Below are positions 3,907 to 57,198 of a stretch of DNA of 64,000 nt, in pieces (position 1 is the stretch's first letter; each line of letters opens with the position of its first letter). Position numbers and translations under genes: made by a program. Origin of the DNA: an uncultured Gemmiger sp. (GTDB lineage: Bacteria; Bacillota; Clostridia; Oscillospirales; Ruminococcaceae); the NCBI GenBank assembly GCA_944388145.1, contig CALXHQ010000002.1, forward strand, positions 62,001 through 126,000. The letters are read 5' to 3'. The notes under the pieces were generated by a model. The model saw only the letters and a list, made by a program, of their open reading frames with translations, was not told where the DNA came from and did not search any database.

Positions 3907-3979
3907 AGGGCGTATCCGAAAGATTTCCGGCGCTGTTCACTTCTACCGGAGCAACGCTTTTGATGGATCAGATACCCCC
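3907..3979. repeat. Dispersed short repeat, copy 1
   Basis: Bounded by GGGCGTATCCGA (3908-3919) and an imperfect inverse, TCAGATACCCCC (3968-3979). The interior ends with CTTTTGATGGATCAGATAC, closely shared with the copies near 30.05 kb and 63.92 kb. It sits in the leader of the MATE gene and supplies an alternative ATG at 3963. Confidence 0.6.
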
Positions 3980-19952: not shown

Positions 19953-20109
19953 GCTGTTCACTTTTCAGGCTGCACACCCGGGGCCATAGGGACACCACTG
20001 CGGCATCCCCGACCGCAAAGGCTATGGGGAGGGGGAATGAAGGGTCCTACGCCAATCTTATACATTTTGTATAATTCCATCGTCATATTCCATTTATGAA
20101 TTTGCAGCC

Positions 20110-20142
20110 AAAAACTGCCCGCAGGCACGGACCCGCAGGCAG
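20110..20142 (-). terminator. Terminator of the aminotransferase gene
   Basis: Leftward hairpin CTGCCTGC/GCGGGCAG with one G-T pair, followed by TTTTT, 27 bases beyond the stop at 20169. Confidence 0.7.
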
Positions 20143-20168
20143 AATGTTACAAATGGGGAAGTCCAGAT

Positions 20169-27477: not shown

Positions 27478-28832
27478 ATCAGCAGACGATGTTTTTGCAA
27501 ACGCCGCCCGCCAAGCTGTTCTTTATGGCGGCGATCCCCGGCGCCATCGGCATGCTGGCGTCAGCGCTCTATCAGCTGGCAGACGGCATCCTGGTGGGGC
27601 AGTTTTTGGACGGCACCGCCTTTGCTGCGCTGAACCTGGCCATGCCCTTTGTCATTATCAACTTTGCCCTGGCCGACCTGATCGGCGTGGGGTCGTCGGT
27701 GCCCATCTCCATTGCACTGGGGCAGGGCCGGGACAAGCAGGCCAACAACTATTTTACCTGCGCCTGCCTGATGATCTTTACCGCCGGCATTCTGGTGGGG
27801 GCAGGGATGTTCCTTGCCTCTCCCGGCCTGATTGCCCTGATGGGCGCCGAGGGGCGCTTTGCCGAGCTTGCCGTACAGTACCTGCGGGTATACGCCCTCT
27901 GCTCGCCGGTGACCACCATCGTTTTTGCCACCGACAACTACCTGCGCATCTGCGGGCAGATCAAGGGCAGCATGTACCTGAACATCCTGATGTCGGTGCT
28001 CAGCGCCGGGCTGGAGTTTTTGTTCCTGGGGGTATTCCACTGGGGCATCTGGGCAGCGGCGCTGGGCACCTGCCTTGGCATGATGGTCTGCGCCGTCATT
28101 GCGCTTGCGCCCTTTGCGCTGGGCCGGATGAAATTGCGCTTTTGCCACCCGCGCTTCAGCCTGGACCTGGTCCGACGCATCGTCAGCTGCGGCCTGCCCA
28201 CCTTTTTGAACAATGTGGCCGGGCGCATCACCAGCATTCTGATGAATATGCTGCTGGTACGCCTGGGCGGCGAGATGGCGGTGTCAGTCTACGGTGTGCT
28301 GATGTACGCCGACGGCTTTATCCAGCCCATTCTGTACGGCACCTGCGATTCGCTGCAGCCGGCAGTGGGCTACAACTGGGGCGCCGGACGGTTTGGCCGC
28401 TGCCGCGCCATCGAAAAATGCTGCATGCGGGCAGCGATGGTTCTGAACGCCGCAGCACTGGTGGTGATTGCCCTCTTCCCCGAGCAGATTGCGGGGCTGT
28501 TCCTCGCCGATGCAGACACCGCGGGCATGGCCATGGCGGCGGGCGCGCTGCGGCTGTTCAGCCTGACCTATCTGACCCGGTGGTTCTCCTTCTGGGTGCA
28601 GAGCTATCTGCTGGCAGTGGAAAAGGCAGTTCCGGCCACCATCATCTCCATCTCCACCGCGCTGATCTTCCCGGTATTGCTGCTGGCGGCGCTGTGGCCG
28701 CTGGGGCTGACCGGCATCTGGCTCAACTTTGCCGGCACTGCCGTGCTGGCGGGCATCCTGGCCGCCATTTTGCTTCGGCGGGAATGGCCCGATCTCTCCC
28801 GGACTGACGCCCCTGTGCAGGCGGACCCTTGA
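27474..28832 (+). CDS. MATE family efflux transporter, MarR-regulated
   Basis: A 452-aa twelve-helix MATE protein. The N-terminal MAAIPGAIGMLASALYQLADGILVGQFLDGTAFAALNL and the central SLQPAVGYNWGAGRFGRCR are family features. It overlaps marR by four bases (27474-27477). By analogy with MarR-MATE pairs it exports drugs, bile-type compounds or other toxic organics by cation antiport. The gene ends 14 bp from the convergent peroxiredoxin-like gene, with no clear terminator between. Confidence 0.92.
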   Translation: MNQQTMFLQTPPAKLFFMAAIPGAIGMLASALYQLADGILVGQFLDGTAFAALNLAMPFVIINFALADLIGVGSSVPISIALGQGRDKQANNYFTCACLMIFTAGILVGAGMFLASPGLIALMGAEGRFAELAVQYLRVYALCSPVTTIVFATDNYLRICGQIKGSMYLNILMSVLSAGLEFLFLGVFHWGIWAAALGTCLGMMVCAVIALAPFALGRMKLRFCHPRFSLDLVRRIVSCGLPTFLNNVAGRITSILMNMLLVRLGGEMAVSVYGVLMYADGFIQPILYGTCDSLQPAVGYNWGAGRFGRCRAIEKCCMRAAMVLNAAALVVIALFPEQIAGLFLADADTAGMAMAAGALRLFSLTYLTRWFSFWVQSYLLAVEKAVPATIISISTALIFPVLLLAALWPLGLTGIWLNFAGTAVLAGILAAILLRREWPDLSRTDAPVQADP

Positions 28833-28846
28833 GCGCCCCGCGGGAA

Positions 28847-29671
28847 TCAATCATCGTAGGGGTCATCCAACAGCCCCTGCAGGAAGGTCTGGGACAGGCG
28901 TGGGGAGTGGTACTCCTTCACGTCGCTGTCATCCCAGTCCTCCTCACCGTCCGCAGGGGTGTCAAATTCCGCGGTTTCCTCTTCCTCATCGGCGAGGTTG
29001 TCCTCCGGGGCGGCCTCGCCATCGTCGTATCCATCCCCGTCCTCCGGGGAAACCGGCGCCGGGCGCAGCCGGCGGGCGGAGCCCGCCTCGGCCTCCTCCT
29101 CGGTGTCGTCTCCCTCTGTGGCCAGCAGGTCCAGTTCATCCAGCAGCTCCTGCATGGCGCCGCAGTCAGCTGGCACATCGGTCAGGCTGTTGCCGTAGTG
29201 GCAGAACAGCACCGTACCGTCCGCGTCCAGGATCAGGGTCAGCGGCATCTGTTGGGCGGCGTGCATCGAAACCTCATAACCGCGGTTGCGTGCCTTTTTG
29301 ATGATCTGCCACGCCTCCAGCGAGCAGGTGCGCCAGAACCCCGTGCGGGTGGGTATGTCCAGATAATCGTAGAGCACGCCCTCCACATCGCACAGAAGCG
29401 GGAACGGCAGGGTGCCAGGCCCAATGCTGGGCGCCAGCCGGGCCGGTTCCGACCGGACCACCATGGCAAAGCCGCCATCCTTCAGCTTGAAATGGGTGTG
29501 GGAATACCGGCTGACAAAGGTGCGGGTGACCGGATGGCCAAAGTTGCTCATGAACACCAGCACCAGCGGTGCCTGCCGGGCCAGCAGCTCCCGAAAGCTG
29601 TTTGCCTCGCTGTACGGCGTGTCATACTGAAAAAAGGGCAGCCGCTCGCCCACCTTGATCCGTTTGCCCAT
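28847..29671 (-). CDS. Peroxiredoxin-like protein lacking active-site cysteines, with acidic tail
   Basis: A 274-aa protein. Residues about 1-195 follow the thioredoxin-fold pattern of AhpC/TSA-like proteins (KVGERLPFFQYDT; LVLVFMSNFGHPVTRTFVSRY; LTLILDADGTVLFCHYG). The expected GCPxCR active site is replaced by GHPVTR at 45-50, so neither catalytic cysteine is present there. The last 80 residues are strongly acidic, low-complexity and probably disordered. I infer a binding or regulatory role rather than peroxidase activity. The start at 29671 has AGGGAGG 8 bases upstream, preceded by a strong hairpin. Confidence 0.7.
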   Translation of the reverse strand: MGKRIKVGERLPFFQYDTPYSEANSFRELLARQAPLVLVFMSNFGHPVTRTFVSRYSHTHFKLKDGGFAMVVRSEPARLAPSIGPGTLPFPLLCDVEGVLYDYLDIPTRTGFWRTCSLEAWQIIKKARNRGYEVSMHAAQQMPLTLILDADGTVLFCHYGNSLTDVPADCGAMQELLDELDLLATEGDDTEEEAEAGSARRLRPAPVSPEDGDGYDDGEAAPEDNLADEEEETAEFDTPADGEEDWDDSDVKEYHSPRLSQTFLQGLLDDPYDD

Positions 29672-29696
29672 GCGGGCCGCCTCCCTCTGCCGCAGT

Positions 29697-29732
29697 GCCC
29701 CGCCCCCTTGCAGAGGGGCGGGGCCGTTTTTT
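29697..29732 (+). terminator. Strong hairpin with T-run on the plus strand
   Basis: 10-bp perfect stem GCCCCGCCCC/GGGGCGGGGC (29697-29706, 29715-29724) followed by CC G TTTTTT on the plus strand. It lies just upstream of the leftward gene at 29671, so it could stop antisense transcription, or, read leftward, form a 5' leader hairpin before that gene's ribosome site. Confidence 0.45.
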
Positions 29733-29768
29733 GCCGGAACCGGTCTGCACCGCAGGCAGCCCGGTATA

Positions 29769-29802
29769 CAAAAATGGGCAGAACCGCCGGGCGGTCCTGC
29801 CC
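29769..29802 (-). terminator. Terminator of the candidate small RNA
   Basis: Leftward 11-bp stem with one wobble pair (29802-29792 with 29786-29776), then ATTTTT. Confidence 0.75.
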
Positions 29803-29961
29803 AAGTCAAATCACAAAAACCCCCGCCCGGCCGTCTGCAGCCAATCAAAACCTACCGCGTGGCAGGTGGGTGCCCTGCGGACGTTTTCATGCTCCCTTCT
29901 TCCGCCCAGGGGCGGGAGGTCTGCAATCCGGCGGCCGACGCCAGGCTCCCTAAATTTGATT
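29769..29961 (-). ncRNA. Candidate structured small RNA (about 190 nt, family not identified)
   Basis: A leftward transcription unit with no open frame. A consensus TATAAT (29973-29968) puts the start near 29961, and a hairpin with T-run ends it at 29769. The 5' and 3' parts pair: TCAAAT with ATTTGA, CGGCCG with CGGCCG, then GCAG with CTGC. Inside are two hairpins: CTCCC/GGGAG enclosing CCGCCC/GGGCGG, and a longer one built from AAAAC/GTTTT, CCGC/GCGG and GCAGG/CCTGC. Size and the long closing stem recall 6S RNA, but I cannot confirm the family. No adjacent gene start suggests a riboswitch. Confidence 0.5.
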
Positions 29962-29967
29962 AGTAGG

Positions 29968-29973
29968 ATTATA
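29968..29973 (-). promoter_or_regulatory. -10 element of the candidate small RNA
   Basis: Leftward TATAAT; the hexamer 17 bases upstream (GGTGCG) is a poor -35, so the promoter call is tentative. Confidence 0.4.
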
Positions 29974-30025
29974 TAAAGCTGCAACAATTCGCACCGCGCA
30001 GGGGGAAATGCTCTGTCAGGTATTC

Positions 30026-30073
30026 AGGGTGTATCTGAAAAATTCCCAGTCCTTTTGATTTATCAGATACCCT
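30026..30073. repeat. Dispersed short repeat, copy 2
   Basis: Ends are AGGGTGTATCTGA (30026-30038) and TCAGATACCCT (30063-30073), an inverted pair differing by one or two bases. Its right arm forms the last two sense codons and stop of the DUF1292 gene. Confidence 0.65.
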
Positions 30074-30395
30074 CTAGTTCAGAATCGTCGATGTCGAACA
30101 TGGCGCGCAGCCGCTCCTCAAAGATACGGCCCACCTCCAGCAGTTCCTCATCGTCATCAACGATGTCCATATACTCACCCTCGTCATCGGTGCCGACGCG
30201 CATGATGATCAGTTCAGCATCCTCGTTCAGGCTGGCGGGGTCCTCCATATAGGGGACAACGGCCAGATAGCGGGTGCCCTTGACCTCGGTTGCATCCACA
30301 ACCTCGAAGGTGCATTCCTGCCCGTCCTCATCCTCCAGGGTGAGAAGATCGGGCGCGGCTTCCTCCAGCATTTCGGGTGTAAGCTCGTCTGCCAT
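30063..30395 (-). CDS. DUF1292 family protein (YrzB-like)
   Basis: A 110-aa acidic protein with the DUF1292 pattern: LLTLEDEDGQECTFEVVDATEVKGTRYLAVVPY followed by ELIIMRV and a C-terminal RIFEERLRAMFDIDD. In Firmicutes such proteins are often next to mrnB/yrrK/yrzL-like genes; here ruvX lies elsewhere. Function is unknown. The start at 30395 has GGAG 11 bases upstream. The end is unusual: the last codons (Glu-Gly-Ile-stop) come from the arm of a dispersed repeat, so the natural C-terminus may have been modified. Confidence 0.85.
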   Translation of the reverse strand: MADELTPEMLEEAAPDLLTLEDEDGQECTFEVVDATEVKGTRYLAVVPYMEDPASLNEDAELIIMRVGTDDEGEYMDIVDDDEELLEVGRIFEERLRAMFDIDDSELEGI

Positions 30396-30497
30396 AGTTT
30401 TGTTTCTCCGTTTCCGGGGCGGCGCCCCCGTTTCTCTTGAGTATAGTTTACTTGTTTTTTGCATTGGCGTCAAGCGGTATCTATTTCTTTTTCAATG

Positions 30498-33041: not shown

Positions 33042-34283
33042 ATGAATCCCTTTGAGGAAAAGCCCCGCCCGCTGGAGGACGGATTCCTGAGCTGGAAAGA
33101 CCTGGCCCCCGCCCCTTATGACAAGCGGGAGGCCGACCCCTACACCAGGGTGCGCATCATTTTGATGAACGGCACCGAGTTTGAGGCGGTATGGTTCAGC
33201 CACCAGTTCCACCGCCACTGCCAAAACAATGATCTGCGGCGGGAGCTGGCCATTCTGCGCCGGCAGGAACAGCAGCAGCAAAAGCAGATTGCGGCCCTGA
33301 AGCCGCTGGACGAGACGGTGCTGGAGCATACCATCGGCTACGAGCAGCTGGCAGTGGACCTGACCGCCCGCATGGCCCAGTGTGAGCCGGACGAGCAGGT
33401 GAAACAGGCGCTGGATTTTGCCCTGCTGGAGGACTTTGACCACCTGTACCGCTACGCCGACCTGCTGGAAATGGACGAGGGCGTCCACGCCGAGGACCTG
33501 GTGGGCAAATACACCGAGATTATGCCAGCCCGGCCCACCATCGCCCACCACCGCTGGCCGGCGGACTCGGTGAAACCACCCATCCGGAACAAAAAAGCGG
33601 CGCTGGCGACCAAGCTGCATGTGAACATCATCACGGCGGCGGAACAGCAGACGATGAATTATTATATGAACCTGGGCAGCTTTTATCCCAATGACCGGGG
33701 CCGCAAACTGTATACCGAGATCGGCATGGTGGAGGAACAGCACGTGACCCACTACGGCAGCCTGCTGGACCCGGCCTGCAGCTGGCTGGAAAGCCTGCTG
33801 ATGCACGAGTACACCGAGTGTTACCTGTATTACAGTGCCTATGAGACTGAAACCTGCCGCCCGGTGAAAAGGATTTGGGAGCAGCACTTTGCCCAGGAGA
33901 TTGCCCATCTGCACCACGCGGCCCATCTGCTGGAGGTCTACGAGGGCAAACAGTGGCAGCAGGTGATTCCGGACGGCACCTTCCCCGAGGTACTGGCACT
34001 GGGGCCGAACATCGAGTATATCCGGGATGTGCTGGCCCGCACCGTGACGCTGACCGCAAAGGGCGAGGGATATGCCCCGGTGGAACAGCTGCCCGCCGAC
34101 GCGGATTTCTTCCGCTACCAACAGATGGTCAACGGAAAAACCGCCAACGTGACCAGCCACACCGTCATCCAGGATTGTATTGCCGAGAACGGCCAGGATT
34201 ACCGGTTCGAGACGGCGGAAAATCCCATCCCCGCCCTGCGCTGCCGCACCAAGGACAATACCACCCTGGGCCGCAAGGCATAA
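33042..34283 (+). CDS. Ferritin-like di-iron domain protein, uncharacterised
   Basis: A 413-aa soluble protein. I do not recognise a named family, but residues 195-300 show the spacing of a di-iron four-helix bundle: Glu201, Glu231-x-x-His234, Glu256/Glu259 and Glu286-x-x-His289. A coiled-coil-like Gln/Arg-rich stretch lies at about 62-85. The N-terminus (MNPFEEKPRPLEDGFLSWKDL) and C-terminus have no known motif. AAAGGAG precedes the start. Oxygen or peroxide detoxification, or iron handling, would fit an anaerobe, but this is inference. It is monocistronic. Confidence 0.6.
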   Translation: MNPFEEKPRPLEDGFLSWKDLAPAPYDKREADPYTRVRIILMNGTEFEAVWFSHQFHRHCQNNDLRRELAILRRQEQQQQKQIAALKPLDETVLEHTIGYEQLAVDLTARMAQCEPDEQVKQALDFALLEDFDHLYRYADLLEMDEGVHAEDLVGKYTEIMPARPTIAHHRWPADSVKPPIRNKKAALATKLHVNIITAAEQQTMNYYMNLGSFYPNDRGRKLYTEIGMVEEQHVTHYGSLLDPACSWLESLLMHEYTECYLYYSAYETETCRPVKRIWEQHFAQEIAHLHHAAHLLEVYEGKQWQQVIPDGTFPEVLALGPNIEYIRDVLARTVTLTAKGEGYAPVEQLPADADFFRYQQMVNGKTANVTSHTVIQDCIAENGQDYRFETAENPIPALRCRTKDNTTLGRKA

Positions 34284-57084: not shown

Positions 57085-57198
57085 GCTGAAAAGCGGCGAA
57101 TACAAGGTGCACGACCTTGCAATGGCAAGGTTGTGCAACGCAGTAGGTGGTGCTTTTTTTGTCGAATTGGACCGTGCTGGGGATTTTTCAGATACACC
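57085..57198. repeat. Dispersed short repeat, copy 3 (composite)
   Basis: Starts with GCTGAAAAGCGGCGAATACA (57085-57104), identical to 63954-63973, continues through a 13-bp hairpin with one G-T pair (about 57109-57121/57126-57138) and ends with TCAGATACACC (57188-57198), the same end arm as copies 1 and 2. It fills the gap between the reductase and dinB. Confidence 0.65.

Follow-up and report, generated by a model that had tools for sequence, protein, structure and literature searches.

The locus at positions 29816–30007 (minus strand) of the window, i.e. of the whole 64,000-nt stretch of DNA analysed here, almost certainly encodes the one 6S RNA present in a Gemmiger species, and comparison with related genomes indicates that it is probably transcribed together with the DUF1292 gene upstream of it. 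In a covariance scan of the entire 64-kb window against Rfam 15, RF00013 (6S RNA) was the sole family above its cut-off, with 59.6 bits against a gathering threshold of 46.4 bits (E = 2.8e-9) over model positions 1–187. The initial annotation had rightly named 6S as the first family to test for a structured RNA in this region; its doubt that the RNA is a 6S RNA is not supported by the RF00013 match or by the compensatory changes described below, which support its reading as a dedicated structured RNA and not a riboswitch. For raiA-motif RNA, the other family proposed there for a search, no covariance match above cut-off was found in the 64-kb window, and none of the other five Rfam families listed for 29650–30100 reached its own cut-off. 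The Gemmiger genome carries one 6S copy according to the Rfam model, and a second copy was dismissed since none was found with this model. Fifty stretches in genomes named as Gemmiger, Fournierella, Anaerofilum or their relatives matched a sequence pattern describing the 3′ portion of the RNA.

The RNA lies in a gap of 391 nt (29672–30062) between two leftward genes, the length of which had been put correctly at ∼390 bp. The elements of the locus are as follows:

30063–30395, minus strand: DUF1292 gene (110 aa), predicted first cistron (PF06949, E = 1.5e-16, 61.4 bits)
30026–30072 (ends approximate), minus strand: remnant of a repeat element with inverted ends, between DUF1292 and 6S (genome repeat match)
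29816–30007, minus strand: 6S RNA, full span of the Rfam model (RF00013 covariance match)
29775–29803, minus strand: intrinsic terminator of the transcript (13-pair stem with 9 G-C pairs, then TTTTTG)

The DUF1292 stop codon occupies 30063–30065, and the terminator, read from 29803 to 29775, is as excellent as had been claimed. The downstream neighbour is a weakly AhpC/TSA-like gene (28847–29671, counting from the ATG at 29671; the mechanical open reading frame extends upstream to a TTG). Immediately before the start of this leftward gene, the plus strand carries a terminator-like hairpin of 10 pairs, all G-C (29697–29724); among rightward genes with a family match, the nearest ends at 28832. 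Also on the plus strand, 33042–34283 encodes a 413-aa protein with no Pfam match above cut-off.

With 55 nt, the distance between DUF1292 and 6S in the window is the longest among the 33 congeners, the others having 3–20 nt. The spacer is not unique sequence, an assumption that was rejected because it matches the ends of a repeated element: the remnant of ∼47 nt corresponds to both ends of an element of ∼164 nt found elsewhere in the genome, with the middle missing. Two longer copies of this element (G000:C25:∼19994–20157 and C2:∼233941–234105) are 93% identical over 165 nt and have inverted ends of ∼20 nt, and further fragments occur in the window near 3957–3977 and 57177–57198. The end of the remnant provides the DUF1292 stop, so that the protein ends in SELEGI compared with SELD, SELE, SELES etc. 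in relatives. Consensus promoter and terminator scans detected neither a promoter nor a terminator in the remnant.

An alignment of the same locus in related genomes, suggested earlier as a check, revealed compensatory changes in 33 congeners and in 25 sequences from across the order, and by this comparison the changes support the 6S fold. The 33 congeners were aligned by sequence only, and RNAalifold returned a consensus of 52 pairs for this genus set. The comparative architecture consists of a closing stem, a central bubble with a hairpin on its 3′ side and an apical arm:

29990–30003, minus strand: closing stem, 5′ strand (consensus helices 1–2)
29821–29833, minus strand: closing stem, 3′ strand (consensus helices 1–2)
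29977–29984, minus strand: inner closing-arm helix, 5′ strand (helix 3)
29835–29842, minus strand: inner closing-arm helix, 3′ strand (helix 3)
29955–29961, minus strand: central bubble collapse helix, 5′ strand (helix 4, consensus fold of 33 sequences)
29843–29849, minus strand: central bubble collapse helix, 3′ strand (helix 4, consensus fold of 33 sequences)
29850–29867, minus strand: 3′ central-bubble hairpin (helix 9)
29868–29950, minus strand: apical arm (helices 5–8)

In the genus set 98.7% of the cells are paired, compared with 95.2% after shuffling and 36–47% (maximum 47.3%) in slid versions. Fourteen pairs changed on both sides (shuffled mean 7.6; 0 of 500 shuffles reached 14) and 69 cells were doubly changed against 17.8 in the shuffled sets, counts that overstate independence because the 33 congeners are mutually related. 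The number of further pair types (33 versus 30.3 shuffled) was reached in 31 of 500 shuffles and is hardly above chance. Clear covariation was observed among the 33 congeners for the column pairs 28/189 (A-U 16, G-C 11, G-U 6), 13/199 (G-C 21, G-U 8, A-U 4) and 165/172 (C-G 25, U-A 8). All lettered cells of the 8 pairs of helix 3 are paired (100%) and 3 of these pairs are doubly changed; the apical arm contributes 8 doubly changed pairs (2, 5, 1 and 0 in helices 5–8), and the 7 pairs of the 3′-side hairpin are 100% paired in the 33 sequences, one of them being C-G in 25 and U-A in 8. Bubble, collapse helix and 3′-side hairpin are among the most conserved parts of the RNA. The collapse helix is invariant across the genus except for one broken cell, so that covariation does not speak for it there and support comes from the order-wide set only. 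The 25 sequences of that set were aligned to the model built from the genus, and in this alignment, which is fitted to the structure and biased towards it, 41 of the 52 pairs are doubly changed (26.2 shuffled), with 227 doubly changed cells (69 shuffled) and 89.5% of the cells paired (71.3% shuffled). For the collapse helix, the same structure-fitted alignment gives 7 of 7 pairs doubly changed, yet 78.3% of the cells paired. The long self-complementary stretch recognized at the outset is indeed strong, although its excess of stability in single-sequence folding is modest (z = −1.99; equal or greater stability in 6 of 200 shuffles).

The initial annotation had placed the RNA at 29769–29973. The first 34 nt of the RNA, among them the entire 5′ strand of the closing stem, fall outside this interval, and the terminator is included as though it belonged to the RNA; with these coordinates, its picture of three successive pairing blocks enclosing two hairpins captured the architecture in part only. 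It had also named a −10 TATAAT. The string is present (minus strand, 29973–29968), but corresponds to nt 35–40 of the conserved RNA, where all 33 congeners carry TAGAAT, TATAAT, TATGAT, AAAAAT or TAAAAT; a promoter of the RNA at this position was rejected, as the string lies inside the RNA and a consensus promoter scan of 29400–30400 gave 0 sites. A free-standing RNA of ∼190 nt outside the 6S family, starting just past this string and ending in the terminator, would make use of two elements that do exist, one of them with a similar string in 33 of 33 congeners. However, helices 1–3 (closing stem and inner helix), which pair with compensatory changes, would lose their 5′ strands if the RNA started at this site, the full Rfam model covers 29816–30007, and no consensus promoter is found at the TATAAT; we consider this alternative hardly credible.

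According to the available parts of two reports (PMC8876501, PMC8414754), 6S RNA mimics an open promoter and sequesters the housekeeping polymerase, which is freed when a pRNA is copied from the bubble. The accessible part of the latter report gives a rule for pRNAs, namely GG at pRNA positions 4/5 or 5/6 and an A beside the start. Its application to the bubble yields one further element:

29962–29975, minus strand: predicted pRNA template in the 5′ central bubble (GG-at-5/6 and flanking-A rule, PMC8414754)

The template would start opposite nt 46 (window position 29962) and includes the TATAAT of 29968–29973. The predicted pRNA, 5′-AGUAGGAUUAUAUA..., fits the GG 5/6 rule and has the A at nt 47, which is no independent test because the start was chosen by that same rule; the candidate pRNA would begin AGUAGGAUUAU. 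A second feature that the consulted part of PMC8414754 describes for lactic acid bacteria, AA at positions 9/10, is absent from the predicted pRNA, which has UA. Blocking of 14 nt at the pRNA site resulted in a collapsed fold with the 3′-side hairpin at −77.5 kcal/mol, compared with −78.3 kcal/mol for the free minimum without the block and −74.9 kcal/mol when CCUAC/GUAGG was forced. As these folding energies are close, a pRNA-driven switch is possible, which is no proof of its occurrence. Taken alone, the free RNA of the window prefers an alternative pairing of bubble and apical arm, with pairing probabilities of at most 0.17 for the collapse helix and at most 0.19 for the 3′-side hairpin.

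The relation to DUF1292 was studied in 61 genomes (the Gemmiger genome itself and 60 relatives). The Rfam model detected 6S in 53 of these, and a lineage model, run on the 8 Rfam-negative genomes and on G053, recovered it in 6 of the 8, in one case partially (G028, model positions 58–140 of 194). The apparent absence of 6S from 8 of the 61 genomes thus mostly reflects a limit of the Rfam model, and both models combined found the RNA in 59 genomes; the two without a match, G002 (86% complete) and G040 (55% complete), gave no DUF1292 match either. A DUF1292 gene lies directly upstream of 6S on the same strand in 52 of the 53 loci L001–L053 (all but G037); of the 6 added genomes, four (G028, G041, G052 and G056) have it there as well, and G047 and G057 do not. 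In the 52 linked loci of the first group the two are separated by 1–20 nt (44 loci) or 55–154 nt (8 loci). Many of the entries L054–L103 represent the same contigs as the G genomes; they were excluded from the counts, and their gaps are approximate. In the wider class, counting only DUF1292 entries on contigs with a listed 6S, the gene was found within 300 nt upstream in 27 of 131 genomes with 6S, belonging to 14 families, and within 6 kb in 5 more, among the matches listed. By sequence comparison, the link is near-universal in the order and patchy outside it, as seen from 56 of 59 order genomes versus 27 of 131 class genomes among the matches listed. Several Clostridia genomes contain two 6S matches and G093 three; the matched genomes of the order have one each, and so do the 27 class genomes with close linkage, among the matches listed. 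In family f43 (G107, G131, G174) DUF1292 is followed by 6S on the same strand at a distance of ∼3.3 kb, which may represent an intermediate or ancestral state, and the 6S of G107 has a promoter-like sequence of its own with a score of 14.4.

Promoters were scored over the 75 nt before 6S with a home-made consensus and single-base shuffles, using a threshold score of at least 10. No consensus promoter was found in the 75 nt upstream of the 6S of the window, the best site scoring 4.0, a value equalled or exceeded in 121 of 200 shuffles (p = 0.605). Together with the comparison, which points to transcription from the DUF1292 promoter, this speaks against the earlier description of the RNA as free-standing. 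The 44 tightly linked order loci have a median score of 4.7, one reaching 10 and 5 having p < 0.05; for the 8 order loci with a wider gap the median is 11.5 and 5 reach 10, and the single unlinked order locus scores 14.6. In the class, 16 of 18 loci with unlinked 6S reach 10 and 14 of 18 have p < 0.05, these 18 genomes being chosen for their high rank by 6S score and not at random, and linked loci reach 10 in 8 of 16 cases with gaps of at least 30 nt and in 0 of 6 with gaps of at most 29 nt. Order and class combined, the score is reached by 1 of 50 tight versus 17 of 19 unlinked loci (Fisher p = 5e-13), or by 0 of 14 versus 9 of 11 when counted by family majority (p = 2.7e-5), a test that excludes linked loci with wider gaps, namely 16 in the class (at least 30 nt) and 8 in the order (at least 50 nt).

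A different picture was obtained upstream of DUF1292, where the window contains a motif that is conserved in the congeners:

30468–30473, minus strand: −35 element TTGACG of the promoter upstream of DUF1292
30445–30450, minus strand: −10 element TAAACT of the promoter upstream of DUF1292, with a 17-nt spacer

All 33 congeners have TTGAC[GT]-N17-TA[AC]ACT ahead of DUF1292, with the top-scoring site there in 31 of them; TTGACN-N17-TANNNT is present in 11 of 19 further members of the order. In a strict scan of the 33 congeners, none had a terminator separating DUF1292 from 6S, and 20, window included, had one behind 6S; outside the genus, one locus (L051) has a terminator between the two. With tight loci that almost all lack a consensus 6S promoter, a conserved DUF1292 promoter and no intervening terminator in the genus, a single transcript is the simplest reading.

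Alternatively, this could be an ordinary 6S gene whose own, non-consensus promoter is hidden within the final part of DUF1292 or the spacer, the linkage being a matter of compact packing. Promoters of 6S are common elsewhere, as in 16 of the 18 unlinked class genomes, and the 5 of 44 tight order loci with p < 0.05 (e.g. TTGACA-18-AAAACT in L043) make a weak promoter within DUF1292 possible in some species. In the genus, however, no high-scoring site is shared, the best site in the window is matched by most shuffles as described above, and the last codons of DUF1292 lack extra conservation at silent sites (0.66 versus 0.64, permutation p = 0.344), which speaks against a promoter hidden there; such a promoter was rejected on these grounds. 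We regard a separate 6S promoter as unlikely, albeit an explanation to be taken seriously.

The best explanation overall, which we hold to be likely from the genome comparison, is that 6S is made through DUF1292 transcription and cut from the message. RNA polymerase would start at the conserved promoter before DUF1292, read across DUF1292 and 6S and halt at the terminator behind 6S, and the 6S RNA would then be cut by nucleases out of the 3′-terminal part of the message. The 6S fold is retained at 186 of 192 positions within the predicted transcript of 664 nt. Once released, the RNA would fold as a promoter-like rod of closing stem, central bubble and apical arm and, judging by its family, should occupy sigma-A RNA polymerase at nutrient exhaustion. 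It would be released when the polymerase uses the 5′ side of the bubble as template for the short pRNA (predicted as 5′-AGUAGGAUUAUAUA...); with this bubble strand occupied by the pRNA, the collapse helix and the 3′-side hairpin could form. One transcript, its processing, polymerase binding and the pRNA start are what we infer from these data. The 6S sequence might instead remain in the message and serve mainly as a 3′ element stabilizing the DUF1292 mRNA, given its location in the predicted 3′ untranslated part and its equal fold inside the longer RNA. But the parts linked to use by polymerase, i.e. bubble, collapse helix and 3′-side hairpin, are among those of highest conservation, and 6S persists in 3 of 59 order genomes where DUF1292 does not adjoin it, rendering this very improbable.

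In E. coli, a gene co-transcribed with 6S (ssrS-ygfA) lies downstream of it, and 6S has its own promoters; the arrangement proposed here differs in both respects. The RNA itself resembles RF00013 6S (SsrS) in its full-model match, closing stem, central bubble, apical arm and single copy, and differs in that no consensus promoter was found directly upstream and in its predicted origin from a protein-coding message. With B. subtilis 6S-1, as described in the available part of PMC8876501, it shares the 3′-side hairpin of the bubble and the potential to form a collapse helix there, whereas the sequence differs and the refolding proposed here derives from consensus and energies alone. A likeness in expression is found in the accessible part of PMC7726162: ssrSB of Bacillus thuringiensis is a 6S without a promoter of its own, formed from a shared ssrSA-ssrSB precursor and possibly processed; in that case the precursor is shared with another 6S gene and, in the present proposal, with a protein gene upstream. 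The 6S RNAs of lactic acid bacteria (PMC8414754, available part) likewise show a conserved neighbourhood, the general consensus structure and a hairpin opposite the 5′ bubble, but they have rarA and uspA as neighbours and an upstream 6S promoter instead of DUF1292 and no consensus promoter. As proposed here, E. coli 6S is derived from longer RNAs by nucleases, with two precursors that are cut with the participation of RNases E and G according to the part of PMC8539372 consulted. In the portions at hand, a Wolbachia paper names internal start sites for 6S, a faecal small-RNA paper reports E. coli 6S, and nothing on 6S of the group of Gemmiger was found in a paper on Ribo-seq contaminants.

The DUF1292 protein is small and acidic. 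A structure model of 94 residues, built from 34 of 52 DUF1292 proteins (mean pLDDT 77.6), gave no structural match in the PDB at E ≤ 0.001, and the sequence gave no PDB match better than E = 0.26. Among the matches listed from the open-licence literature (titles and beginnings of abstracts), neither a link between DUF1292 and 6S nor an order-wide 6S from the tail of a protein message was found. Judged by this literature and by sequence, the RNA is of a known kind and its arrangement with a DUF1292 message is apparently new. A broader and rather doubtful extension would be that 6S in the Oscillospirales, and seemingly also in certain other Clostridia, lost its own promoter and became a 3′-end product of the DUF1292 message, its amount being set by a protein-gene promoter and a nuclease, with DUF1292 as a working partner of 6S or of the polymerase.

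6S is usually regarded as an independently controlled gene. If the proposed origin is true, the supply of 6S in these bacteria would depend on how strongly a protein gene is transcribed and how its RNA is processed. The order-wide linkage also offers a lead to the function of DUF1292.
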